Assembly (NCBI GenBank): GCA_020466095.1
Contig: CM035806.1
Location: 61,640,229-61,704,228, forward strand
Reading direction: 5' to 3'
DNA from: Chlorops oryzae
Lineage: Eukaryota > Arthropoda > Insecta > Diptera > Chloropidae
Length of the DNA: 64,000 bases
The position numbers and the translations under genes are program-made. Every line of letters begins with the position of its first letter. Position 1 is the first letter of the stretch. This document shows positions 1-59,694 of this stretch, piece after piece. Under the pieces are notes generated by a model. That model was not told where the DNA came from. It did not search any database and was given only the letters and a program-made list of their open reading frames with translations.

Positions 1-449
1 GGAATTTTTAAATTTTGTTGAATTTTCGATAGGTGCCATCTAAAAACACTGTGGAGACTACGTTTTAGATTTTTATTTTGAACGGTCCTTGAAATATCCT
101 TAAAAATCCTTTTTCTAAAATTTTATATCTCAAAAACTAATTAAGATAAGAAGATGAAACAAATGTTGGTTGGTTGCTAATATAACAGGAAATCAAAAAA
201 AAAAATTTAATTTTTACACTGAGAAAAATTTGCCCACAAAACTAAAAAGACAATTTTAACAATTTTTTTCAGTGAATTCCTAGTTGGACGCCACTCTACA
301 AAAATTTTTTTTTAAATACCTCTAAGTATTTGCTTTCATTTGAAAAAAAGTTTTATTCAAATTAAATGGCGCAACAGTGAGATATTCAAAAAATTACAAG
401 TGCACATAGATGCTCACGAAAGTCCACTAAATAATGGTCATTGGATTTA
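1..449. other. AT-rich stretch, no gene seen
   Basis: No coding frame, RNA gene or paired terminal repeat could be recognised here. The TA at 448-449 is the left target-site copy of the Tc1-like element that follows. Confidence 0.5.
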
Positions 450-2057
450 CAGTCGTGTTCAAAATAATAAGAACAAACATTATAAGATTGCAAACAGGCT
501 CATAAGACTTTCCAAATGACTTTTAAAAATATTTCTTTATTTCTTATAAACAGTCTCAGATATTGAGCTCATAAAATTGAAGGTTACGACAGTCTGGAAA
601 GTCTAAATTTTTTATTAGGAGCAACTTTGGCGCTTGAAGTCAAAAAATGCCTGTTCGAAAAAATAAGAACAACTCCAAAATTGCAAAGATTTGGGTTTGA
701 AAACAAGCAGTGAATATTGGCACATCCTTAGAAGTGCAGTTGGCATAGTTTTCAGTTGCTATTGTTATAAAATAATTGTGATTTTAACTGAACAATGAGA
801 TAAAACAAAAATTGTAGACCTGAGCTTAGAAAATCCATAAAAAAAGCTGCTCCATAAACGGAAAACTTTTGATTTTATTAGGGAGACTCTCGTCATTTCT
901 AATGGGATGATAAACGACAACAAACGTTCACGACAGGTCGAAAATCGTGGTAGACAAAAGAAATACACTGCAACCTAAGACAAATTGATCAGGAGAACTT
1001 TCACGCAGAACCCCATTATTACCACTACGCAGATCGAACACGAACTAGAACTACCCATAGCTACTTCCACTATAAGGTAACGTTTTACCCTAGCTAACCT
1101 TAAAGCTAATACTCCAAGAAAATTACGTGTGATACACTCACGAAATTTGAAAACCAGAATCAAAATTTTGTTAAGGAACCCGACACAGTTTGGCGTAACA
1201 TATTGTGGACTGATGAGACTGAGGTTGTGCAGCTTAATCACGGTAAGGAAAAGCAATACGGTAGACATCATCAGAAGCAAGAATTCAAGGCAAAGTTCAC
1301 TGCCGAGACAGTGAATTACGGAGGCCGGAAATTTATGTTTTTGGGATGTTTTTCACGGAATGAAATTCGACCGATTGCTAATATCCTGCGCAATATGAAC
1401 GCCAACTTTTATGTTCAAAATGTCCTTGGAGCTATTGTCCTTGCAAATTTTGAAGAAAAAATGGCTTTTTCAACAAGACAATGACCCAAAACACACTTTA
1501 AAGAAAGCAAAAGGTTGCCTTCGATCAAACAATAAACGTTTTGAAATGGCCGGCGATATCACCGGTTATTTTTTTTTACCGAAAATAACATTTGGATGGA
1601 TGTTAAAAAAGGGGTTAGGTATATTATGCTCAAAACTCCCAAAGAATTATGGCAAACAGGGTAGAAAACTGCGAAAAATATCTCGGCCGCAAGATGCCGC
1701 AACCCTTAAAGGGTCAATGAGCTCCAGATGCGCCGAAGTAATTGGAAATGATGGGGAACACTCCATATTAAAATGTGACGTAACTTGTTACCATTTCTAA
1801 AACATACAATTCAAACAAAGCTCATTTTTCTTCCATTGTTCTTATTTTTTCGAACAGGCATTTTTTGACTTCAAGCGCCAAAATTGCTCCTAAAAAAAAT
1901 TTAGACTTTCCAGACTGTCGTAACCTTCATTTTTATGAGCCCAATATCTGAGACTGTTTATAAGAAATAAAGAAATATTTTTAAAAGTCATTTGGAAAGT
2001 CTTATGAGCCTGTTTGCAATCTTATAATATTTGTTCTTATTATTTCGAACACGACTG
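450..2057 (+). mobile_element. Tc1-like DNA transposon with long terminal inverted repeats (defective)
   Basis: The element is 1,608 bp, starts CAGTCGTGTTC and ends with the inverse, GAACACGACTG. It is flanked by TA at 448-449 and 2058-2059, the target duplication of the IS630-Tc1-mariner superfamily. The inverted repeats are unusually long, about 223 bp (450-672 and 1837-2057), and differ by only a handful of substitutions and small indels. The plan recalls the long-TIR Tc1 elements of flies (S, Paris or Minos type), but I cannot name the family. It sits in the presumed intron just upstream of the FGF-like exon. Confidence 0.9.
795..1800 (+). pseudogene. Tc1-like transposase relic
   Basis: A degenerate Tc1-family transposase, spread over several frames by indels and stop codons. 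Around 800-1140 there is helix-turn-helix-like sequence, including a readable FTQNPIITTTQIEHELELP. Around 1190-1480 follows a catalytic-core piece with WTDETEV, the position of the first catalytic aspartate, and KFMFLGCFS. A +1/-1 shift near 1450 then leads to FQQDNDPKHT, the classic second-aspartate motif (QDNxPxH). The expected downstream SPDLNPIE-type block with the third acidic residue is not readable. The protein therefore cannot be made. Family membership rests on the two motifs plus the TA-flanked inverted repeats. Confidence 0.8.
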
Positions 2058-2354
2058 TATGTGTGTCGGATATTGATTTGTCAGGCTCGCCTATTTGTAA
2101 CACGCTCATGTGCTATAAACCCAAAAGCGGCTTGCTGGTGCTTTTCAACGTCAACCCAAACTTCAGCGTCAATCCAGTTTCGTTAAAGTGCTTTGAATCC
2201 CAAAACTAAGGGAGGTCGCTTTCTAAAGATATTTTGTCCTAGATATTGAGTACATTATAAATTTCAGCTGGTGGATCCTTTTTTTTTACTGACCTTTTAT
2301 TTTAATTGAAAATTAATGAAATAATATTTTTTTATCCATTTTGAATTTGAACAG
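2058..2354 (+). other. presumed intron upstream of the FGF-like exon
   Basis: No other gene is seen. The T-rich tract near 2279-2340 followed by TTTGAATTTGAACAG fits a polypyrimidine tract and a 3' splice site ending at 2354. Confidence 0.5.
2340..2354 (+). promoter_or_regulatory. splice acceptor of the FGF-like exon
   Basis: The T-rich stretch ends in AACAG at 2350-2354. From 2355 the frame is open and reads FGF-like sequence without interruption. The same frame is closed upstream by a TAA at 2322-2324, so coding sequence must be spliced in from an exon to the left. Confidence 0.65.
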
Positions 2355-5300
2355 AAAGAACTCCAAAATACCTGCTACTTCAACGAGACAATCGTACATG
2401 GTTATTTCGTTTTCCGATCCGTGCTCGATTTACAGCGTCGCGTCGGTTTTACCCACCGAGGTAAAGCGGTTGGCCCGAAGAAAAATGTGAACGACGCTTG
2501 TTATTTATTTACGAAAATTCAAGCTAACGAATTTTTCCATCAACACAACAACTATTTTGCACATAAGACAACAACAGCAGCAGCAGGAGCAGCACCAACA
2601 AAAGCAACAGGAGCGTTATTAGCATCGTCAACTGTAACGACAACGATTGCAAAGGGCGTACCATTGCCATCGAGTCCTTCGGAAGTGCAACGCAACAAGA
2701 ATAGACGTCGCAACAATAGCAAAAAAAGCAACTACCGTAACATTAACCAAAATGTGCATAGACTCAATGGCCATAATAGCAATATAAGTTCGAATTTAAG
2801 TAGCAACAGCAACAGCAACAAACAACAGCAACGCGCCCAACAACCGCAGCAAGCAGAACAAAATGAAAAATTAGTTTTAGAAAAAGGAAAAACACACAAC
2901 AAAAGTCGCAAACACCATCATGATCACCACCATCATCATCATCATCATAGCCAAGACCATGATCGTCAACAGCAACATCAGCATCAGAATCATCACAGAC
3001 ATCTTCAGAAGCAACACTCAGTGCGACATCATCATAACAATCCGGATATTATTGCGCGTAGACAACAACATGTACAAAAGCAAAAGAGAAGACCGAATAA
3101 TCGTTTGCATATGCCAAGAATGGCATCAACATCAACATCAACATCAACGTCAACGTCAAAAGATAACGCTACTTATCGGTCTGAAACACCGAAAACTACA
3201 ACAAGTTTCCCAATGACTTTATCTAAGTGGAATCAAGCTGCCTTTTCGACCTTAACATTAGCAGTAACACCAAGTCAGAAATTGCTTTCAACATCAATAA
3301 CGCCAAAAGTGACAAGCGATGAGAGAAAATTGCTAACGACAATTTTGATGCCCACAATTTCATCATCATTATCGTCATTGTTATCATCATCATCGCCAAA
3401 TCTACCATCATCATCAACATCACTATCATCATCATCACCATCATCATCAACATCACTATCATCATCATCATCATCATCATCGCCATCATCATCACCACCA
3501 TTATCAACTCCATCATCATCGTCGTCAAAGTATAGAACTAGTAAGACACCATCAACCTCTAAACGTAAAGGTCTACGCCGAAACTATAAGAAACATACAT
3601 TTAAACAACAAAAATTAACTAAACAACAGCCGCAACTGTTAAAACCAACTGTGCAAGCTACTGATGATCAACCGATTTTTATAACAGATGAAAATGGAAA
3701 GCCGTTTTCTCTATCAACACTAGCCTCAACGACTTGGAGTGACTTAACGAGCATTGCAAGTTTTCTTGATGAATCTAAATTGTATTATGGAAATGAGTGG
3801 CCATCAACAGCAACAGCAACAGCAATATCATCACAACCATCAGATGAAAACTTTGCTGTCTCACCAACAGCGATGCAATTATTGAGTGAAACATCCACTT
3901 CAAGGAAAGCCACTGATTTTGAAAATGAATCGACGAGCTTTTATTCTGCTCGATTTCCTTTTAATGGAAGCACAAATGCTGCGTACACCACCACCACCAC
4001 CACCACCACCACTACAACAAACAGTATTAAAAATCGAAAAAAATCAACCACAAGTTCATCAACGTCACTATCAACACTAAAAGACGAAGACGACGGCGTA
4101 GAATTAAACGAAAACGAAGAACAAGAAGAAGAAGGAGGAGGAAATAAAGAATTGTTCCCCGATGAAATTGAGTCATCAATAAATGAGATGATTTCGCTCC
4201 CTGGTCCTACTGATGCTTTGCCAAAAATGAAAGCAACCACCAAAGTCAATTTAAAAACGCAGCACGATAAAGCTGCAACAACATTACCTAGTAAGTCAAA
4301 ATCAGCAACGAATACCTCTAGTAACAAAACTGTTAGTTATGTTAAAAGCCATGTTGAACCGGATGCATTAAATGTCACTTCAATGGGTGAAACTTCAACA
4401 GCAACAACACCAATCAGAAATGTTATTAGCAAAGACGCAGCAAAATCATTTACTGCAAGTACAACTACGCAACAGCAACAGGAGCAGCAGCTGCACGGAG
4501 TGACGCCAACACTAATGAGCGACGCAGTTATAAATGTCAACTACAAGAAGTGGTTGATGAACGTCAAAGCCAATCAAAGCAATGAAAATATCAATATCAA
4601 TAACAATAAAAATATTTTGAGAAACTCCATGACTGAATTAATTAATAGCACTAGAAGTAGCAATTCATGCAGCAGCGAAGAAAATGGTACATCTATTAAA
4701 TATCAAAATGGTAGCTTACAACAATATCAAACAAAAGCACAGCTCACCACGGATCGAAACGTTGAACTGAATGTTAATAAAACGCCAATTTGGACTTTAT
4801 CAAACAGTAATTCGCTGACAACATTGATGCCAACAACGAAGCTTACAATATTCAAGGCTCAAGAAGTCACTTCCACAACAACTTTGAGTCCATTGTTGCA
4901 ACTGTTTTCACCATATTACGTAACGGAAAGTAACAATTTCATTGAAATGGAAAAGAACACCAACAATGGCAATATCAATGATATTATTGAAAATAAAACG
5001 CCTGAGACGACAACAGAATCAAATGCACAAAATCAATTCATCAATGCAATAGCAACGACGAATTCATTTGCATCGACATCAACGACGACGTCATCCGTTG
5101 TGCCATCAGTAAGGAAAGCCATACGAAAATCGACGCAAAAGTTGCTTGCAACACCATTTCATCAAATCACCACATATGTACGCAATGAAGCCGGCGATAT
5201 CGACATTGATAATATTGACAACATAAGCGTCTATCCCGATGTTTTAGAAAGCGAGACCGATTTCACCGATGACGCAGTCCAGTTGAAAAAACACCAACAT

Positions 5301-5471
5301 GTCAGTAATAATAATAAGAATAACACCAATAGTCGATTGATTGTTGTTAGTGGTTACCTACCTACGTCAGCGTCCGCTGTGCTCCCAGAATCCATACAAA
5401 TCGCGAAAATTAAAATAAATAACGAACGTCAACGACTTTGGCCACAACGTTTTGTTGGCAACACTGCGTAG
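2355..5471 (+). CDS. FGF8-like ligand (thisbe/pyramus type), last coding exon
   Basis: This exon is open for about 1,038 codons to TAG at 5469-5471. No ATG opens it; it continues from an upstream exon. Its first ~67 residues look like the end of a beta-trefoil FGF of the FGF8/17/18 subfamily: CYFNETIVHGYFVFRS followed by GFTHRGKAVGPKK and ACYLFTKI. These align in order with the FGF8 blocks around CVFTEIVLENNY, AFTRKGRPRKGS and VHFMKRL. In flies this subfamily is thisbe and pyramus, secreted ligands of the Heartless receptor in mesoderm and muscle development. The rest is low complexity: His/Gln-rich (about residues 186-215), a Ser run (335-391), a Thr run (544-555), an acidic patch (577-595) and Ser/Thr/Asn-rich sequence. 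I see no transmembrane segment. The tail is longer than I recall for Drosophila proteins of this type. Thisbe versus pyramus is not decided. Confidence 0.8.
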   Translation, partial: KELQNTCYFNETIVHGYFVFRSVLDLQRRVGFTHRGKAVGPKKNVNDACYLFTKIQANEFFHQHNNYFAHKTTTAAAGAAPTKATGALLASSTVTTTIAKGVPLPSSPSEVQRNKNRRRNNSKKSNYRNINQNVHRLNGHNSNISSNLSSNSNSNKQQQRAQQPQQAEQNEKLVLEKGKTHNKSRKHHHDHHHHHHHHSQDHDRQQQHQHQNHHRHLQKQHSVRHHHNNPDIIARRQQHVQKQKRRPNNRLHMPRMASTSTSTSTSTSKDNATYRSETPKTTTSFPMTLSKWNQAAFSTLTLAVTPSQKLLSTSITPKVTSDERKLLTTILMPTISSSLSSLLSSSSPNLPSSSTSLSSSSPSSSTSLSSSSSSSSPSSSPPLSTPSSSSSKYRTSKTPSTSKRKGLRRNYKKHTFKQQKLTKQQPQLLKPTVQATDDQPIFITDENGKPFSLSTLASTTWSDLTSIASFLDESKLYYGNEWPSTATATAISSQPSDENFAVSPTAMQLLSETSTSRKATDFENESTSFYSARFPFNGSTNAAYTTTTTTTTTTTNSIKNRKKSTTSSSTSLSTLKDEDDGVELNENEEQEEEGGGNKELFPDEIESSINEMISLPGPTDALPKMKATTKVNLKTQHDKAATTLPSKSKSATNTSSNKTVSYVKSHVEPDALNVTSMGETSTATTPIRNVISKDAAKSFTASTTTQQQQEQQLHGVTPTLMSDAVINVNYKKWLMNVKANQSNENININNNKNILRNSMTELINSTRSSNSCSSEENGTSIKYQNGSLQQYQTKAQLTTDRNVELNVNKTPIWTLSNSNSLTTLMPTTKLTIFKAQEVTSTTTLSPLLQLFSPYYVTESNNFIEMEKNTNNGNINDIIENKTPETTTESNAQNQFINAIATTNSFASTSTTTSSVVPSVRKAIRKSTQKLLATPFHQITTYVRNEAGDIDIDNIDNISVYPDVLESETDFTDDAVQLKKHQHVSNNNKNNTNSRLIVVSGYLPTSASAVLPESIQIAKIKINNERQRLWPQRFVGNTA
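3358..3528 (+). repeat. coding TCA trinucleotide microsatellite (poly-Ser)
   Basis: Imperfect TCA repeats inside the FGF-like exon encode a long serine tract. Shorter coding tracts are CAT (His, about 2913-2950), TCAACA (3126-3156) and ACC (Thr, about 3986-4010). All keep frame, as expected of trinucleotide slippage in a coding exon. Confidence 0.85.
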
Positions 5472-13643: not shown

Positions 13644-16600
13644 CACACTGGGTTGAAAAGTCTCAAAACTGGCGCTTAATTCAAAAAGTAACTTTCCCAG
13701 CAAGTTTTGGCACCGAATTACAGTGAATTAATTGCTACATCACTAAATGCCAAAAAAAAGTTGATAGCATGCTTACAACAACAGTACTCGCTTGTCAAAG
13801 TTGACATTTTGTTTACAAGTTTCTTAAAAGCGTAAAATAGTGAATTTGAGCGATTTTTAAACCAATTTTTTTCTGAAGATAACCCACGATTCTATATTTT
13901 GGAAATGGAACCTTCAACTTCGGGTATTTATTTGTTTAAAAACGAAAAAATAATTTTAAAAAAGTGCAAACATATATTTTAAAAAATAGTTTTTTTAAAT
14001 GGCATAAAATTACGGCTTTTTCAATATTCATGTAAACTTTCAAATATGAGTTTAAGACAGTTCAGTGAAAGTGCTTATAAATTCAGAAAAGCGGAAGTCT
14101 TAGCTTTCAGAATCAGGAAAAAAATCTTGCGAACTTATTGCGAAATCGCAAAATATTTAACGTTTTGTGAAACAACTCGAATAAAAAAGCATAAATGTTA
14201 AATTCTTTGCACTAGCATTCCTAAGTATAGCGGTACATATACTGTCAATTGTTTGTTTTGCTATTTTTTGTTTGTTTTCTTTGTGAAAGAGAAATAAAAT
14301 GCAAATGTTATTGCTTGTGCATATTACACTGGTTAACAAAAAAATCTTTGAAGAAGCTTTAAATGTGTCGATGTACATTTTCGCATCTGTTTAAATTAGT
14401 AGATGTTTTGATGTTAATAAATAAAAAAAAGTGGCTTTAAAAAATAAATATTTTTTATTATTTTAGGAATAAATGCAACCAAAAATTTTATTTGTCGTCG
14501 CGAACTACACAACATTATGAAAAATTCTGAATGTTCACAGTTGGCCGATAAATTTAATTTTTTGAGAGAAGAAATTATTAAGCGTTGCAACCCGTTGGAC
14601 ATAACAGATTTCGATCTGAGGTTTAAAAACTTCTGTCACAACTTTAAAATTCGCTGGCAAAAATGTGGCAGACATGAAGGTCGTTTTTTCAAACAGAATG
14701 ACATATGGTTGAACTCATCGATATCTTTTATTCCTTCACCTTCAATGCCAACCAAGCGGATCGAAAGGAAATTAATTTTGAAGAATGCTGTGATAAGACA
14801 AAAAACAAAAAAACAAAAGTCTTAAGAACAAGTACACCTTTATCAGAGTTAGCCCATGCCACCCAAATGAGTTTAAGAGCTTCAGGTCAAACTGAAGCAT
14901 CAAAACTATTAAAAGAAGTAACAACCACAACTCCAACCAGGGCGGAAAAATATAGAAAAAGTTTGATGAAGCAAGATCGGTTCGAAATGACTCCTGAAAA
15001 GGCGTTATCAGTCTTAGTTGACGCAAAACTGAGCAGACATCAGTATAATATAATAAGAAAGTCTGATCCTGAGAAATTTCCTTCATATACACGTGTTCAA
15101 TTTGCCAAAAAAAGAATGCTATCCTGGCAGTGAAAGTATAATTATTTGTGAAACTTCAGCCAAAGTTAGCCTCCAAGCTCTTTTGAACCACACAGTTGAA
15201 CGTTTGTTCTTACTTCAAAAGGCTTTAGTAGACACTTTAGATGACAACGAATTATCAAGAATGATTTTACATTGTAAATGGGGATTTGATGGAAGTTCAG
15301 GTCATACTTCTTATAAGCAAGCGTTCCATGGTCCTGATGCTACTGATTCTGCTGTTTTCATAACATCAATTGTGCCATTACGATTAACAACTGGCGACAA
15401 AATTTTTTGGCAAAATTCTCGCCCTGATTCTACACGGCTCTGTAGGCCCCTCAAAATAGAATTTATTAAAGAATCTGCAATTGTTTCAAAATTGGATAAA
15501 GAAAGAGTGGATAAAGAACTAAAAGAACTTGAAAACTGCGTTATTTCGGTGGGAGACAAAACCATAATTGTGAACTATAATTTAATGCTAGTTATGATTG
15601 ATGGAAAAGTATGTAATGCTATTACAGAAACAACATCGACCTAAAAAATGTTATTTGTGTGGTGCTACCTGTAAAGAGTTCAACTTTATTGAAAAGATGA
15701 TTGCAAATGACGTCAAAACGGACAATTTGAATTTCGGCCTATCAATTCTTCATGGGTGGATACGATTCTTTGAGTGTCTACTACACTTGGCGTATAAACT
15801 CCCTATCCAAAAATGGCAGGCGAGGTCAGACTATGACAAACAAGTTGTTCGTGACAACAAAATGCGGATTCAGAAGGAATTCAGAGAGTAAACGGGTCTG
15901 ATAGTTGATCAGCCCAAACCAGGTTTTGGAAACTCTAATGATGGCAATATGGCCAGACGATTTTTTAAGAATGAAAAACTATCGGCTGAAATAACAAAGG
16001 TAGATCTACAGCTAATTGAAAAAATGCCTATTATACTTATCGTTGTTTCCTGTGGCCACAAAATAAACTATGAAAAATATAGGGATTTTGCTCACACTAC
16101 CGCGCGATATTTTGTTGAAAAATATCCCTGGTATAATATGTCTCCAACATTACATAAATTTTTGATACACGGACCTGAAATTATAAAGCACGCTTTGTTA
16201 CCTATCGGTCAATTGTCGGAAGAGGCGCAAGAAGCTCGCAACAAAGACTTTAAAAGTTACAGAGAGCATTTCTCTCGTAAATGTAGTCGTGAAAAATCAA
16301 ATGAAGATATCTTCAACCGACTTCTTCTTACATCTGATCCCGTAATTTCAAGTCTAAGGGAGCAGTTAAAAAAAAAAACGTCAATCTCTACCCAAATTAG
16401 CATTAGAGCTTTTAATTATAGATAGTGACTATGATTCCGAAAATGAAGATGATCGTGGTCAAAATGAAGATAGTGATGATAACTGTGATGAAGATGATGA
16501 TGATTACTCAAGTTCTCAGGAATTGGGGCCTTATTAATGTCACACAAAAAAATCCAAAAATGAGATTTTTATAATTAGCAAGGTGTCATGTTTGTTGATT

Positions 16601-16940
16601 TTGATAAAACTCCACTTCATTTGTAGCCAAATACAACAAAAAATGTTCAACCTAGTTTTATTTTATTAACTTGTGTATAAATAAAACACAAAAATGTGAT
16701 ATCATTATTTTTAATCACACTCTAAAATAGTCGTTTCCTCTTTGTTTCAAAAACTGAAACACTTGTGAAAAAATTTAAATGCCTTTTTTATTTTTTATTT
16801 TATGAAAACAGCCTCAAATATACTCGAAAATATATTTATTTTAGTAAGTTGTGCATAACTAAAAATACAAAACTTATAAATCATGGCTCCAGCATTCGGT
16901 TGAATTAATCGCCATTTTCGGGCCCATTCAACCCACTGTG
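13644..16940 (+). mobile_element. Transib transposon, full length but broken
   Basis: 3,297 bp, beginning CACACTGGGTTGAA and ending TTCAACCCACTGTG, so the right terminus read inwards is CACAGTGGGTTGAA. The target duplication is an exact 5-bp CGCCG (13639-13643 and 16941-16945). A GC-rich 5-bp duplication with CACAGTG-like ends is the hallmark of Transib, the superfamily related to the RAG1 recombinase. The terminal repeats share blocks over about 40 bp (GGTTGAA, then AAAATGGCG / AAAACTGGCG, then TTAATTCAA). The transposase relic inside confirms the class. Confidence 0.93.
14517..16537 (+). pseudogene. Transib (RAG1-like) transposase relic
   Basis: The reading frame is nearly complete but broken: shifts near 14750, 15110, 15630 and 16370 (the last in an A run), plus one in-frame TAA at 15889-15891. 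In order one reads an N-terminal region, then LPLSELAHATQMSLRASG-like sequence; KWGFDGSSGHTSYKQAF with the first catalytic Asp; MIDGKVCNAITE with the second; a zinc-binding KCYLCGATC; the RAG1-like NDGNMARRFF; and SEEAQEARNKD with the catalytic Glu. The tail is acidic (DSENEDD... to TAA at 16535-16537). In Transib these residues form the DDE site that cuts at the CACAGTG end; RAG1 uses the equivalent set. The Met at 14517 is the first in-frame one; more N-terminal sequence may lie upstream. Confidence 0.88.
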
Positions 16941-22616: not shown

Positions 22617-23822
22617 TATTTGTAAATAAGATTTATGGAAAGGTTTGCGACATTAGAGTGCGTACTGTAATCTCCGTTCTCCGTTGATGTCATGCGCAAA
22701 GAACTTTGTCGAATTTTCAATAAATATCCTTAGAATTCTTCAAAGACTGTGCTCGGCTTCGGCAAAGCAACCGGTCCCTTAACACAGAGGACAATCGCTG
22801 CACAAATTGCTTACCGATAATAGAGCCATAAAAACATAATTGCTAAGAAATTACGAACAACTTGTCACTTAGGACAAAATGGATCAGTTTATGAATAAGT
22901 GGCGAAAAATGCAAAAAAACCGGCAATGCCAATCTTCGGAATTGTTGTTTGGCCAGCTTTTGGTGGCCATAGCACCATGTTCTTTTATGATTGTGTCTAA
23001 AATTAGCTAAAATCAAATTATGTTGTGTAAAATTCTTACGGTAAGAAAATTGAACCGTCCAGTCTAGCCGCTTGAATCGTTCCGTCTCCAGTGTCAAGTG
23101 CCCAATTTCAGTTGCTCATGTGCAGGGCGTTGTAAGTAAAAAAAAAAACAAAAAAAAAAAACGAACCAAATTCATGCAAAGTCCCCATAATATGGAATGC
23201 AGCTTTTGATTCCGGGGCGACGGCACACAGTGTTGCGTCTCCAGGCCCGTGAGCAAGAGGAAGGTTTTGGGGCTCTAGTTGCTAAATATAGCACTAATGA
23301 ACCCCCTGAAAATCCTATTAAAATTTCAAAAACATTCTCCAATGTTATTTAGAGCTGTAAAATATCGTTACTATTCGGTAAAAAGTAATGATTAATCTAG
23401 TCAGTAATCAATAACGTCTCGTTACTGATGGAAGTATCTCGTTACTAGAACTTTTTTTGCACACATGCCAGCTGATGGTTGCCAGAGTAATAAAGTACTA
23501 ATGTAATGGGTCCACAAAACAGTATGGTAGTAAAGTGAGTTGAGTTGATATTTGGTTACTAAATACTGGGTGAAGATTCAAATAGCATGAAAGATTTTTG
23601 ATTACATGTTGATAACATTGTTATTTATTCGTAAAACTAAAACCAAAATTAAAATTTACACCAATCTCATACGTTTGATACGAAGATTTTCATGGATTTT
23701 AGTACATTTTCGGCCGTATTATCGCAAGCTTGTGCATTATTTCATACAAATATTTATAAAAACTATATATCGTAGAAAAGATAAAAATTAATTTTCTTTC
23801 ACGCAGTATATAATATGTACAT
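22617..23822. other. no gene recognised
   Basis: Contains A runs near 23140 and a single CACAGTGTTGCGTCTCC (23226 on) resembling the right-hand terminus of the Transib-like elements at 55 and 57 kb, without a partner end. Otherwise nothing supported. Confidence 0.35.
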
Positions 23823-47994: not shown

Positions 47995-48593
47995 TATGTA
48001 CTATACTTTGAAGAAAAACAAAGTTGTATTTTTTGCAGTATAAGAAGTTTTATGTAGGCCATAGCTAAAATTTGTTCATAAATGCATGAAATTGCCTGAA
48101 ACCCCTAAATATGCTTTAAATCGCCAGAAAATGCAATTTGCATATGCAATATGCATTTGCATTTTTTCGGTTGATCTGGTCATATGTATCGATTTTCTTG
48201 CATTCACACTACACACAGTGTCGTGACCGCATACTTACATCTTGTGTTCAAAAATAGAAGGAGTTGCATTTGACGGGGATCAAGCCGCATTTAATAAGGT
48301 GATATCAATAGGGGTATTGTCTTCTTCTTCCCCATTTTGTTTCCATGACAACGAATTAAGATTGTCAAAATTATTTTGAAACATTTTTTTCCATGCAGGA
48401 TATGGGACTAGTTAGCTCTAGCATTGTACTAGTTCAAACTTCAACAGTACTTGTTCTTCGTTTTAGCTTTTCAAATGTTTTTGGATAATTTTACCGTTTT
48501 AAAAATAGTGAGTTATTCGACAAATAAAGGGTTGAATAAAACATTTTTCCCATCGGGCCTATTTCCACTAGTCTTTAATATTTGATAAATTGT
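47995..48593. other. no gene recognised
   Basis: Nothing supported. Confidence 0.35.
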
Positions 48594-48870: not shown

Positions 48871-50162
48871 ACAGGTTGGCTGATAAGTCCCCGGTCTGAC
48901 ACATAGATGGCGTTGCTAGTATTAAATGCATATTATTTTTATATAGTGGCAACCTTCAAATGATTCGTGTCAAAATTTGACTCTGTAAGTCAATTAGTTT
49001 GTGAGATAGAGCGTCTTTTGTGAAGCAACTTTTGTTATTGTGAAAAAAATGGAAAAAAGGAATTTCGTGTTTTGATAAAATACTGTTTTCTGAAGGGAAA
49101 AAATACAGTGGAAGCAAAAACTTGGCTTGATAATGAGTTTCCGGACTCTGCCCCAGGAAAATCAACAATAATTGATTGGTATGCAAAATTCAAGCGTGGT
49201 GAAATGAGCACGGAGGACGGTGAACGCAGTGGACGCCCGAAAGAGGTGGTTACCGACGAAAACATCAAAAAAATTCACAAAATGATTTTGAATGACCGTA
49301 AAATGAAGTTGATCGAGATAGCAGAGGCCTTAAAGATATCAAAGGAACGTGTTGGTCATATCATTCATCAATATTTGGATATGAAAAAGCTCTGTGCAAA
49401 ATGGGTGCCGCGCGAGCTAACATTTGACCAAAAACAACAACGTGTTGATGATTCTGAGCGGTGTTTGCAGCTGTTAACTCGCAATACACCCGAGTTTTTG
49501 CGTCGATATGTGACAATGGATGAAACATGGCTCTATCACTACACTCCTGAGTCCAATCGACAGTCGGCTGAGTGGACAGCGATCGGTGAACCGTCTCCGA
49601 AGCGTGGAAAGACTCAAAAGTCCGCTGGCAAAGTAATGGCCTCTGTTTTTTTGGGATGGGCATGGAATAATTTTTATCGATTATCTTGAGAAGGGAAAAA
49701 CCATCAAAAGTGACTATTATATGTCGTTATTGGAGCGTTTGAAGGTCGAAATCGCGGCAAAACGGCCCCATATGAAGAAGAAAAAAGTGTTGTTCCACCA
49801 AGACAACGCACCGTGCCACAAGTCATTGAGAACGATGGTAAAAATTCATGAATTAGGCTTCGAATTGCTTCCCCACCCACCGTATTCTCCAGATCTGGCC
49901 CCCAGCGACTTTTTCTTGTTCTCAGACCTCAAAAGGATGCTCGCAGGGAAAAAATTTGGCTGCAATGAAGAGGTGATCGCCGAAACTGAGGCCTATTTTG
50001 AGGCAAAACCGAAGGAGTACTACCAAAATGGTATCAAAAAATTGGAAGGTCGTTATAATCGTTGTATCGCTCTTGAAGGGAACTATGTTGAATAATAAAA
50101 ACGAATTTTGACATAAAAATGTGTTTTTCTTTGTTAGACCGGGGACTTATCAGCCAAACTGT
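48871..50162 (+). mobile_element. Himar1-like mariner (irritans subfamily)
   Basis: 1,292 bp with ends ACAGGTTGGCTGATAAGTCC and its inverse, mismatched at one base near the right tip (CAGCCAAACTGT). TA on both sides (48869-48870, 50163-50164). Length and ends match Himar1 of the horn fly as I remember it. The near-perfect state shows a recent insertion. Confidence 0.95.
49049..50095 (+). pseudogene. Himar1-like mariner transposase with two single-base indels
   Basis: ATG at 49049 to TAA at 50093-50095 spans 1,047 bp, exactly the 348 codons plus stop of Himar1. The frame breaks twice in homopolymers: an A run right after the start (six As where the intact gene has seven) and a T run near 49649 (one T too many). 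The net shift is zero. Between them the frame is fully open (49072-49689) and after them again (49721-50095). Domains in order: paired helix-turn-helix with a GRP-type linker (SGRPKEV); first catalytic Asp in TMDETW; second in HQDNAPCH; third in YSPDLAPSDFF, giving the D,D34D triad. Family knowledge: cut-and-paste at TA. As read it makes no full protein; if the indels are base-calling errors it could be intact. Confidence 0.9.
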
Positions 50163-55076: not shown

Positions 55077-56719
55077 CACAGTGTACTGTGAGCGGCTAAA
55101 AGCCCCACAAATCGAGATTTTAAATATTTAAATATCTTAAGCAATAGTATTCCTGTTAACAAAAGTCAAAAAGAATTTTGAAATACTTACATATTTTAAC
55201 CCGTTTTAGCACAGTATCCCTTTAAAGCTGTAGGTGATGAAAAGTGTTGTTTTGCAATATTAGAAATTCATTTTAAATGCTCCGTATTGCTCAATTGTGG
55301 TTTTTATATAATGTTTTATATGTGAAATTAAAATACGAATTATGTTTAATCTGGAAATCTCAATATTTTCCTTTGCATCTGAGAATTGCCATTGCATTTA
55401 AGTAAACAATTAAAATAATGAGAAACTTGTTTGCATTTTGCAGTTTTTTTTTTTTTTTTAAACTAAATATACTAAATTTTTTTGGCAAACTTAGTCAGGA
55501 GATCATAAAAGTATTGAAGCTGAAATTAAGTAGAATTTATTATATACTTTCAAAATGTTAAAATATCACAAGCTTGGACTTGTAAAATGGTTAATTAGAC
55601 AACAATTACCTAATAGTATTAAGTATAATTTAGAACAATCACCAATGGAAAATATGATTGCTGCCATTGTTTTAGTGTCATAATATACCCCAACCTCTGC
55701 TCTTGCAACAACAATACAGCCCAGCGGCCAAAATTCTGCTTACAGAAGCGATGAACCGCAACACATTTCGTAGGCGGTAGGCGGTAGTGCGTACGACCTC
55801 ATATACCATCCTAGTATACTTTTGTTCGAGCGTGGCCGTTTTTGAAAAGAGATCGCCTACCGCCTCGTATACTTTGTAATCTATTGGTGAGCAGATCGCC
55901 TACAATCTTCTATACTTTGTAGGCGGTAGGCACTGTTCGCCGCTGGGAGTCAATAACAGTTATTCAGATTTGTTTTATTATGGTTACAAAACAAAAGTGT
56001 AAATTTTTAATAAAATTTACTTGAATTTCTATTGTTTAAAGCCTTATATTGAAGCATTTATCCATTGAAATAAAATATTTGTTTGTTTTTATGTGTGTTA
56101 AATTCTGCCGCTGACTAATTTAAGAAGATAGTTTAATTACTTTTCGAGAAAAAAAAATTACCACTACGAAAAATTTACCACTCAAAATTGAATTTCTTGT
56201 TGAATAGCAGTGATTATTGAATGAGCGTTTCGGCCGAAAGTGCTTCAATTATTTTTATTGAATTTTCATGCATTTTCAATGCATTGCAATTTTCGTAAGT
56301 CGTATGTTAGACCAAACTTTACTTTTATCGAAATTATGATAAAACTATAATTTGAGTTTTTAAATACACTCGAACTTTGTCAAATTTTGAATGGATCAAA
56401 AAAAAATGTCCATATGAAGGTATTCATCTGGTATAAATCTTTCAACTTTGGGAGGGGTGAAGTTTGTATAGGAAGCGTGGCACTCTAAAAGTTTTTTCAT
56501 CCTAAATAAGCTGCATAGTAAGTTTCAGCAGACTTATGTTAAGGTTATTAGAAAATGACTTGTGCGGAAGGTGGGTGTGGAATATTTTATTTATTTTATA
56601 TTATAATTCAAAATTTCTTAATTTGAGCTATAGGGAGTATTAACTCGGATTTAATTTCCTTGCTCTGCGATCACTGGTTGTATTTTTGGCCACAGAATGC
56701 ATGGATATGAAACACTGTG
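55077..56719. mobile_element. Transib-like non-autonomous element 1 with 12/23 RSS-like ends
   Basis: 1,643 bp with CACAGTG at both ends. Target duplication CGTCG (55072-55076) / CGTCT (56720-56724), 4 of 5. Left: heptamer, 12-nt spacer, CTAAAAGCC. Right, read inwards: heptamer, 23-nt spacer (56712 down to 56690), CCAAAAATA. Interior non-coding, with the MITE at 55720-55947 inserted. Confidence 0.75.
55720..55947. mobile_element. CCCAGCGGC-family MITE, complete copy
   Basis: Ends CCCAGCGGC / GCCGCTGGG, 228 bp, with internal GATCGCCTAC and TATACTTTGTA repeats. Homologous in reverse to 8124-8385. No clear target duplication. Confidence 0.8.
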
Positions 56720-57780
56720 CGTCTTCTTATTGTAGTTTAAAAAAAAATCGCTTTAATAAGCGACGTAAAATACCACAATAAATAAATGACAATTATGAAT
56801 TGCTCCCCTGCACGACGAGAGACGTGAAGTGAGCTCCACAAATGCACGTCACACAAGAGATTCTTTTCAGTTAAACCTTGGCACATGACTTTAGCAGGCG
56901 TACTTTCCGGACCTGGAACACTCGCACTTCTCCGCCTATCTGCATCGTTTGGCTTGCCTCATTAATTTGTTCTTTATCGCACCTTTTTTTAAATGGCATA
57001 AATATGAATATAAAATTATCAGGCAAAAATGTGAGAAAAAAAAACCACAAAAAAAAAAAAAAAAACGAAAACATCAAAAACAACAGCAACAACAACCGTT
57101 TGTGTTTTCGAGCTACGGAATTTTATATCCAGCAAGGTTTTCTTCTCTTAAGACTGTGTATCGCCCAGCGATGGAATCCTGAATGACAAGGTGTTTTTGG
57201 TTCGATCGAATTTGCATGGCACGAACTTATACTGCAGATGCAAGCAATGATAAGATAATAAGATTTAACCACTGTTAATTCATTACCTATAATCAATTGA
57301 ACATTTTTACACGCAGAGGAAAAAAATCATATCACCAATGGGAACACTCACTTTCAAAGTTTCAGCTCATAACAATTCAAAGATCGGAAGGTTGTTATTC
57401 AATTTCAACTTCAATTTCAATTTATTTAATACTTGGAAATCCTAGCACAGGAAAAATAATCTTAAAGTAAGTGCTAGTCAGTAGCGTAGTGCAGTGAAAT
57501 GGGTCTTCCTTCGAATTTCAATTTCAGTTTCCATTCCCCGCTTGCCTCCATTCCATTCCCCCGAATCAACGAAAATTTTTATGATTTTAAGCAATTCTAA
57601 AAATGTTTCCCTCTATTTTATGTTCCTCGCAATGTGCTTTATAGAACAACCACGGAGCTCAAAGCGTTCCTAGGGCTGCATTGTATTGTTTTCTTTTATA
57701 TTCAATGAAAAAAAGATTATATGAATAATGCTCGACGTCCATAATGCCAAAAATACATAAGACAAATATTTGCAACGTCG
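56720..57780. other. no gene recognised
   Basis: A/C-rich low complexity near 57040-57090 and TTTCAA words near 57395-57425. Frames over these are compositional. Confidence 0.35.
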
Positions 57781-58005
57781 CACAGTGTCACTCTTGCGGC
57801 CAAAAATGATAAAAATCAAAAATATCCGTTTCGAAATTTTTTTATTGCAGAATTCTTCAGAATACTCTAAATAAGTAAAATGCTAAATTTCAAGTCCCTA
57901 CGTATTTTAGTTAAAATTTTTTACGCCCTTAAAGTTACGCATTGTGCGAAGCACAGTTCAGCAAACGTTAACAAATATATACATATGTGTTATATAGAGT
58001 GAGTA

Positions 58006-58930
58006 AGGGCGGGTAATGTGGTATAGTAGCTTTTCTCTTTAACTAAACACACAGGGTTAACGGAACTACGCTTAATAGCTTCAGGTTTTAATAAAACTAT
58101 GAAAGCAAGACAGTTTTTTATTTTTGCAAGTCATGCTATAAATCAGTTGGGAAGAAACTGCGTGGAAGTGTGTTCGTGTTTTTTTTGAGCTCAACTAAAA
58201 ACTGAATTTTTTAATTTAAAAAATTTTTCAAACTTCATGAAGCTTACATTTATGGAACAAGAAACTGTTTTCTTAAGGCAGGGTATAAATCGTAGTTTAA
58301 AAAAAATTAATACTTTCTTGAAAATCAGTATTTCTTTGAATCAACACGAGTGCGGGTATTGTGGTATAGGCTACCGATAGTGGCGAAAACATAATATTAA
58401 ATGACACAACAGGTGAGGAATTTTCAGATTTTCCACCAACAAAAGAAGCTCTGTGTAATTATGGCGATAAAGTCTATGGGGACGATGCAGTTATTATAGC
58501 ATGGGTCACATGTCTGCAATGCGAGCTCGTTTGGGCTCATGAAAAATGTATTCCAAATCGCAGTGCCATTTTTCTTTGCAATTCTTGCAAATAATCTTTT
58601 ATCATTCTAAAAACATAAATAAATAAATAAAACATAAACCACAACTTATTTATTAGAAGAAAAAAAATTAATTACAGGTGTTGTGGTATACTATACCACA
58701 TTACCAGACCTGGTGTACCACATTACCCTCCAAATTTTGCAATTGCCGATATTCGAGTTTTTTTATAAATTGATAAATATGTCAAAAACAAGGAGCCCCA
58801 ACGCTTAAACAGTTAAGGTAGTGTGTGCCTAACATTCATATCATATCAATAGTTCAACAGTATTTTAATCAGATAAAAATTGTAGTTGTTGGCAGCAAAA
58901 AACTATTAGGTATACCACATTACCCGCCCT
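58006..58930 (+). mobile_element. nested pogo-like element relic
   Basis: Terminal inverted repeats AGGGCGGGTAATGTGGTATA / TATACCACATTACCCGCCCT. Internal copies of TGTGGTATA and TACCACATTACC. Carries a PHD-like zinc-finger fragment. Target duplication not clear. Confidence 0.7.
58370..58594 (+). pseudogene. PHD-finger-type tail of a transposase
   Basis: 75 codons to TAA at 58592-58594, opened by a stop at 58367. After an acidic lead (FSDFPPTKEALC) comes a cysteine/histidine pattern: Cys-Asn-Tyr-Gly-Asp, then WVTCLQCELVWAHEKC and FLCNSCK. This is the C4HC3 order of a PHD finger, with one first-pair Cys apparently missing (CNYG instead of CxxC). Some pogo-like transposases end in such a finger. 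The DDE part is absent. Confidence 0.55.
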
Positions 58931-59694
58931 TCCTCTATGTTATCAATGAAAAATATTAAAAAATTTTAATATTATTCCAAAAAGATTTTTTTTTGAATTC
59001 AAATCATCATAAAAAGTAGCGTTAGTTAGAAAAATTGAGTATTTGGGAGTAAAAGATTAGGACTTCACAGACCTCTCCAGATTTTATATATATATTTTTT
59101 TTTAATACTATTTTTTACAAAACAAAAAACATATTGAAAGAATTCGCTTGCAGATTCGCAAGGTTTGATGCCTATTTCAGATGTCTTAAAATGCACTATG
59201 TATTTTTGCGAAAATATACATAACTTATGCCTATAATTTATTTTGCGTGTCAGGTCACTATAGAACTGGATATCCTACTTATATGTTAATTAAAAGATGA
59301 AAATCTATTCTGTTGAAGAAAAATAAAACCTTACAAAAATGAAAACCCAAAATTGTGAAATTTTAGTTCGACTTGTGGGCTTTGCAAGGGAATATTACAA
59401 TTTTTTGATAATTTTCAAATCGAGTTAAAAAAAAAAAAAATTAAGAAAAAGACCTTCCCTATTTTGGATCACAACAGTAAACTCTGTTCCGAATTTAAAG
59501 TCTCTAGGACTAAAAGTGCGGAATTTGGGTCCCCCCTTTACATGGGGGTAGGGGTTGGCGTGGTTCGATTTTCAAATTTTTTTCCACATTTCTTAATTTT
59601 ATGAAAATAAACCTCCATGCCAAATTTCATTGCTCTAGCACAACTCCTTCTATTTTTGGCCACGAGATGTATGGAGACGCGACACTGTGCGTCG

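Follow-up and report, generated by a model that had tools for sequence, protein, structure and literature searches.

A non-autonomous Transib transposon of Chlorops oryzae with one 12-type and one 23-type end, and its transposase-encoding relatives

We describe a 1909-bp element (E1) in the fly Chlorops oryzae whose two ends are unlike, the heptamer CACAGTG being followed by an A-rich block after 12 nt at one end and after 23 nt at the other, and whose features point to an internally deleted, non-autonomous cut-and-paste transposon of the Transib superfamily. The overall best explanation, to which we give a probability of roughly 0.84, is that E1 moved in trans by a transposase of the clade formed by two autonomous relatives (L079 and L082), with one 12 end and one 23 end used. 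The question at stake, as posed in the accessible text of the cited papers, is whether the 12/23 rule of V(D)J recombination came from an ancestral transposon or arose with RAG2.

Structure of E1 and other Transib features of the window

In the window (the whole stretch of 64,000 nucleotides that was analysed), E1 comprises the following features:

57781..59689, plus strand: E1, non-autonomous Transib copy (family F1), 1909 bp
57776..57780, no strand: left target-site duplication, CGTCG
59690..59694, no strand: right target-site duplication, CGTCG
57781..57808, plus strand: left (12-type) end, with CACAGTG at 57781-57787, 12 nt at 57788-57799 and CCAAAAATG at 57800-57808
59651..59689, minus strand: right (23-type) end, read inwards, with CACAGTG at 59689-59683, 23 nt at 59682-59660 and CCAAAAATA at 59659-59651
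57997..58940, no strand: nested insertion (E1 positions 217-1160, boundaries approximate), with inverted arms at 58001-58025 and 58911-58935

Re-reading these coordinates bore out the CACAGTG termini, the 12/23 layout and the perfect CGTCG duplication given in the preliminary description, and its assignment to a Transib-type insect element likewise held: the termini start with CAC and are heptamer-like, as the Transib superfamily requires, the perfect duplication is 5 bp long and CG-rich, and homologous ends occur on transposase-encoding relatives. Because these autonomous elements with homologous ends encode a transposase, we file E1 as a non-autonomous Transib derivative. E1 positions 217-1160 are missing from the other F1 copies compared and therefore represent a later nested insertion; conversely, roughly 480-590 bp that are present in three F1 copies (L013, L018 and L022) are missing from E1. 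The nested element is bounded by inverted arms of 25 bp (GGGCGGGTAATGTGGTATA); its 58370-58591 stretch contains a cysteine-rich frame of 74 aa that is PHD-like by eye and matched no Pfam family.

The window holds further elements of this kind:

55077..56719, plus strand: E2, second 12/23 element, with CACAGTG-12-CTAAAAGCC on the left, CACAGTG-23-CCAAAAATA on the right and flanks CGTCG and CGTCT
48214..48256, plus strand: E3, lone right-type end with a 27-nt spacer and no partner seen
13644..16940, plus strand: AUT, decayed autonomous element of a different Transib lineage; inverted ends near-symmetric, flanks CGCCG/CGCCG
14702..16422, plus strand: broken AUT transposase gene in pieces 14702-15130, 15057-15641 and 15892-16422, the last two matching HzTransib

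The two matching AUT pieces align with HzTransib at 9.3e-31 and 1.3e-47, and the GRP motif (see below) is absent from the AUT pieces read. A-rich blocks (TCAAAACTG and CCGAAAATG) stand at +12 on both AUT ends but are weak. Comparison with the AUT transposase pieces revealed no Transib transposase inside E1, whose frames are short, and 0 matches in the window outside AUT.

Abundance of 12- and 23-type ends in the genome

Searching the genome (442 Mb, 1044 contigs) with the pattern CACAGTGN{8,32}CCAAAAAT gave 886+875 = 1761 matches versus 4+6 = 10 for the reversed pattern; in the window the pattern matched three times, at both E1 ends and at the 23-type right end of E2, versus 0 matches in 100 dinucleotide shuffles. 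When CACAGTG-N(k)-CCAAAAAT was counted by spacer length, 352 places had k=12 and 415 had k=23 (0 for the reversed control in each case), with 32 places at k=24 (control 0) and 8 at k=13 (control 1). Further spacing peaks, judged from the first 100 of the 1761 places, lie at 28 (31 places), 14 (12), 21 (9) and 22 (5) nt, and those with the 28-nt spacer include six convergent 28/28 pairs of 441-566 bp. On contig C1 (for instance at G000:C1, 4972680-4973133) we noted a short family, ~450 bp long, whose two ends are symmetric and both read CACAGTG-28-CCAAAAAT; a further group has a 14-nt spacer.

A motif that is short and A-rich might arise by chance in AT-rich DNA, and the pattern does occur in unrelated viral contigs at many spacings, where a looser version returned at least 120 stretches with spread spacings, except for one repeated sequence at 23. 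Against such an origin stand the excess over the reversed pattern, the duplications and the whole-element homology described below, and we regard chance, already refuted by the family data, as having practically no probability. In the same viral contigs, the 23-end pattern gave a single match (L001), in phage coding sequence, which we dismissed as chance, and patterns from the L079 transposase gave none.

Two families that share the 23-type end

With the first 301 bp of E1 as query, 40 of 159 candidates were scored, and E1 and 39 others match, mostly over positions 1-178. The 39 loci were fetched, and exclusion of eight that share flanks and three without a heptamer left 28 independent left ends of family F1, whose spacer is 12 nt in 27/28 and 11 nt in one (L038). 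Both ends are present in 15 F1 copies including E1 (two of them, L029 and L043, have a left flank in common), with right spacers of 23 nt in 13 copies, 24 nt in one (L020) and 12 nt in one (L044). Among the F1 left ends, conservation of the spacer equals that of the block. L044 (G000:C1:67115250-67118750) is a 597-bp F1 element in which the spacer is 12 nt long at either end and the TGCCG duplication is perfect; its right spacer is exactly 11 nt shorter, reflecting either a later deletion or a 12/12 element that transposed.

The right-end search returned 1592 first-look candidates, of which 40 were scored (40/40 match) and 20 of the best fetched, and these 20 best-match loci all carry the 23-nt spacer and CCAAAAATA (20/20). 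A partner end, with a duplication that is equal or off by one, was found in 17/20, reading CACAGTG-11-ACAAAATAG in 16 and CACAGTG-11-CCAAAATTG in one (family F2). The E1-type right end is common to more than one family. F2 has 14 full-length copies of 1274-1278 bp that are 97.6% alike on average, a likeness that speaks for probably recent activity.

Almost every complete copy, in diverged families as well, retains both spacings, the exceptions to one 12 with one 23 being L038 (11), L020 (24), L044 (12/12) and F2 (11 left). Identical 5-bp duplications (consensus CGNCG) flank 30/40 complete elements, a count that is biased upwards by L044, L076, L078, L079, L082 and L083, all chosen by their matching duplications.

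Autonomous 12/23 relatives encode a Transib transposase

A transposase search of the genome gave 1108 candidates, of which 150 were scored as Transib transposase matches, many with open frames of 500-730 aa; according to the available text of PMC4411706, a genome typically has one autonomous copy or a few. Eight loci were fetched, and element ends were sought in them as heptamer pairs with equal or nearly equal flanking 5-mers. The search for autonomous relatives and their transposase succeeded with two elements, both 12/23 and with uninterrupted frames:

L079, locus positions 323-4564, 4242 bp: CGACG duplication, 12/23 ends, 557-aa stop-to-stop frame
L082, locus positions 97-3495, 3399 bp: TGTCG duplication, 12/23 ends, 565-aa stop-to-stop frame

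The 12 end lies upstream of the gene in both, and the two transposases are 53% identical, with both spacings kept in both elements. L079 matches E1 over 110 bp on the left (70%) and 68 bp on the right (82%), and both E1 ends match L082 too, whose right end is GGCCAAAAC. The right 549 bp of E2 match L082 at 66%, and the E2 left end matched neither L079 nor L082.

CAC-starting ends and 5-bp duplications are found in RAG-like (RAG1L-RAG2L) transposons as well as in Transibs, according to the accessible part of PMC7204232, but the transposase itself makes membership of the RAG-like group very improbable: that of L079 matches HzTransib (6pqn) at E 1.3e-99, the corresponding values being 0.001 with a RAG1L chain (6b40) and 0.0054 with RAG1. 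Moreover, a search for a RAG1L and RAG2L gene pair, covering reading frames >200 aa, revealed one transposase frame only and no second frame of that size in L079 or L082. The catalytic acids of L079 align with D126, D225 and E436 (constant offset of 17 by our reading; numbering from the available text of PMC6941560). A GRP motif lies N-terminal to the core in 7/8 transposase frames; in L079 it is GRPR at residues 7-10, ahead of residue 55, where the alignment with the HzTransib PDB chain sets in. Protein matches to the L079 transposase with E no higher than 0.001 number 805 (7987 candidates), and named sources among the best 120 of the 805 are Rhagoletis, Stomoxys, beetles, a moth and a bee, most others being short contigs.

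The remaining loci are more varied. L085 is a second copy of the L079 lineage with the same 23 end, its left end not being found within the 701 bp fetched. L080 has a 23-type end downstream that is repeated in three siblings (4 copies, different flanks); its other end was not found. The ends of L078 and L083 are 24/23. In L076 the pair has CTCTG flanks but no clear block, and L077 and L081 lack a heptamer pair with equal or nearly equal flanking 5-mers. In the transposase tree, L079 with L082 and L078 with L083 are joined at full support, the rest being open.

Transposase fragments in L014, L025 and L026, on the opposite strand 2.4-2.9 kb inside F1 left ends, were also considered as the autonomous partner and dropped: the extended loci showed no heptamer-type far end with a matching duplication (the far end of L014 is 23-type, but its flanks are CGGCG vs GGACG), and the fragments have a polarity opposite to that of the 12/23 elements L079 and L082. 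At G000:C1:57365078-57369087, the ends of a 12/23 pair, 4010 bp apart, enclose a transposase match at 57365888 in the L079 polarity as well as the F1 copy L022, which may thus sit within an autonomous element.

Conservation of the end blocks

End profiles were built from four left and six right family representatives chosen by us, families with an 11-nt left spacer being excluded from the left profile. The left profile (4 families, 12-nt spacer) has its peaks at positions 1-7 and 16-25 (GCGGC.AAAA) and rises less strongly at 31-39, and the right profile (6 families) peaks at 1-7, at 15-24 (CCATACAT, within the spacer) and at 28-42. On the left the best 9-mer windows span 16-25, with averages of 0.74 over the exact 9 nt at +12 and 0.60 over the spacer; on the right the best windows fall in 28-42, with averages of 0.89 over the exact 9 nt at +23 and 0.63 over the spacer. 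The block at +12/+23 proved more conserved than neighbouring positions across families (4 left, 6 right), the check that the preliminary description had proposed. It extends beyond the "nonamer" (GCGGC.AAAA left, TGGC.AAAAATAG right) and starts 2-4 nt ahead of the "nonamer" position, so that the labels 12 and 23 are best taken to denote a difference of 11 bp, close to one turn of the helix. The two ends have the motif GGCCAAAAA in common, located at +12 in one and at +23 in the other. The 12-type left ends of F1, L079 and L082 also carry a second, shorter A-run at about +23 that is conserved in the left profile and lies exactly at +23 in L079 and L082 (AAAAAATGA); the left end is therefore not purely 12-like and may be read two ways.

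Pairing of 12- and 23-type ends

Pairing was scored on contig C1 up to 80.13 Mb, the part for which the lists of exact ends of both types are complete, with 86 12-type and 100 23-type exact ends and convergent partners within 5 kb. We counted 38 convergent 12/23 pairs (74 distinct ends), one 12/12 pair (L044) and no 23/23 pair, with pair lengths of 223 to 4915 bp, besides seven pairs in other orientations; 110/186 ends lack a convergent partner of either exact type, the exact pattern missing ends such as those of F2. In 2000 label shuffles, 12/23 pairs averaged 19.4 (maximum 30) versus the 38 observed, a significance that is overstated since the shuffle treats copies of one family as independent. 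When two exact ends of these types converge as neighbours, they almost invariably comprise a 12 and a 23.

This pairing may reflect descent, as the ends are inherited together within a family. The asymmetry could even be an inherited accident, in which an 11-bp insertion was fixed in the 23-type end of one ancestor and the transposase needs the heptamer and the first ~15 bp whatever the spacing, or in which A-runs near +23 are read at both ends. The common descent of the ends of a family, the second A-run near +23 in left ends, the 24/23 or near-symmetric ends of other Transib lineages in this genome and the 12/12 copy L044 with its perfect duplication all speak for such an accident, as do the symmetric TIRs of most Transib families and the little nonamer similarity of HzTransib reported in the accessible text of PMC8289069. 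It is harder to reconcile with the common motif at +12 on one end and +23 on the other, with the persistence of spacing and motif between L079 and L082 despite changed spacer letters, with L080, which has the same kind of 23-type 3' end outside the L079/L082 clade, and with the rarity of the neighbouring spacings 13 and 24 (the two counted alone). On balance we consider an inherited accident doubtful, albeit a serious contender.

Proposed mechanism and relation to the 12/23 rule

We favour movement of E1 in trans, in which transposases of the L079/L082 clade would act as a dimer whose catalytic core most likely reads the CAC heptamer, and an N-terminal domain with the GRP motif, the positional counterpart of the nonamer-binding domain of RAG1, would read the A-rich block. 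The distance from heptamer to block is greater by one helical turn at one of the two ends, and one end of each kind would be cut and then joined into CG-rich 5-bp targets, with a presumed requirement for one 12 and one 23 end. Enforcement of 12/23 synapsis by the transposase is a plausible hypothesis. The further step, that a single Transib transposase might enforce 12/23 pairing without RAG2 and that the 24/23 and symmetric sister lineages would mark a rule gained or lost within Transibs, is a tentative proposal that we hold possible at less than even odds; if true, the 12/23 rule would be a transposase property older than RAG recombination.

The supposition that the family keeps an asymmetric 12/23 layout stands, whereas this layout is neither new among Transibs nor universal. 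The accessible part of PMC8355894, citing Kapitonov and Jurka 2005, lists 12/23 asymmetry in some Transibs, namely Drosophila melanogaster Transib5 and Anopheles gambiae Transib2, N1, N2 and N3, which by their description are alike in heptamer, nonamer-like block and one ~12 with one ~23 spacer; compared with these descriptions, what differs in the present genome is that 12- and 23-type ends number in the hundreds, that there are several families, and that some copies are autonomous, their transposase frames being uninterrupted. What is new is an unusually rich member of a known group, with dozens of neighbouring end pairs that nearly all join a 12 with a 23. Since L078 and L083 have 24/23 ends and AUT is near-symmetric, the 12/23 layout is lineage-specific, and its presence alone is no proof that the rule predates RAG.

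HzTransib (PDB 6pqn and others) has a homologous transposase whose catalytic acids align with those of L079, but differs in its symmetric TIRs and little nonamer similarity (available text of PMC8289069). V(D)J 12RSS and 23RSS with RAG1/RAG2 are alike in the CACAGTG heptamer, the 12/23 spacing, the A-rich block and the GRP motif upstream of the catalytic core; they differ in that here the nonamer is matched at 6/9 positions (CCAAAAATG and CCAAAAATA each against ACAAAAACC, counted by eye), a conserved GG precedes the block, there is no RAG2-sized second frame, and the element is a transposon with duplications. Amphioxus ProtoRAG TIRs share asymmetric bipartite ends but have 27/31 spacing and a different inner element (same text of PMC8289069). 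Invertebrate biochemistry in the accessible portions of the cited literature concerns HzTransib, ProtoRAG and sea-urchin RAG1L, and the literature covered, to which most subscription papers do not belong, yielded no genome-wide end-pairing count or biochemical test of a 12/23 Transib. Autonomous 12/23 Transibs beside other end layouts in one genome make spacing preference comparable between related enzymes.

Additional observations in the window

At window positions 23226-23363, CACAGTG is followed by TTGCGTCTCCA, close to a 23-type end, and the nearby sequence matches F2 at 71%, perhaps as a decayed relative. The frames at 49024-50095 have what we take to be mariner-like transposase features. 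The best matches to a long frame at 2325-5471 come from Drosophila and from tephritid and muscoid flies, which places the host among the higher flies; relatives of this frame contain an FGF domain and in some flies go under the name thisbe.
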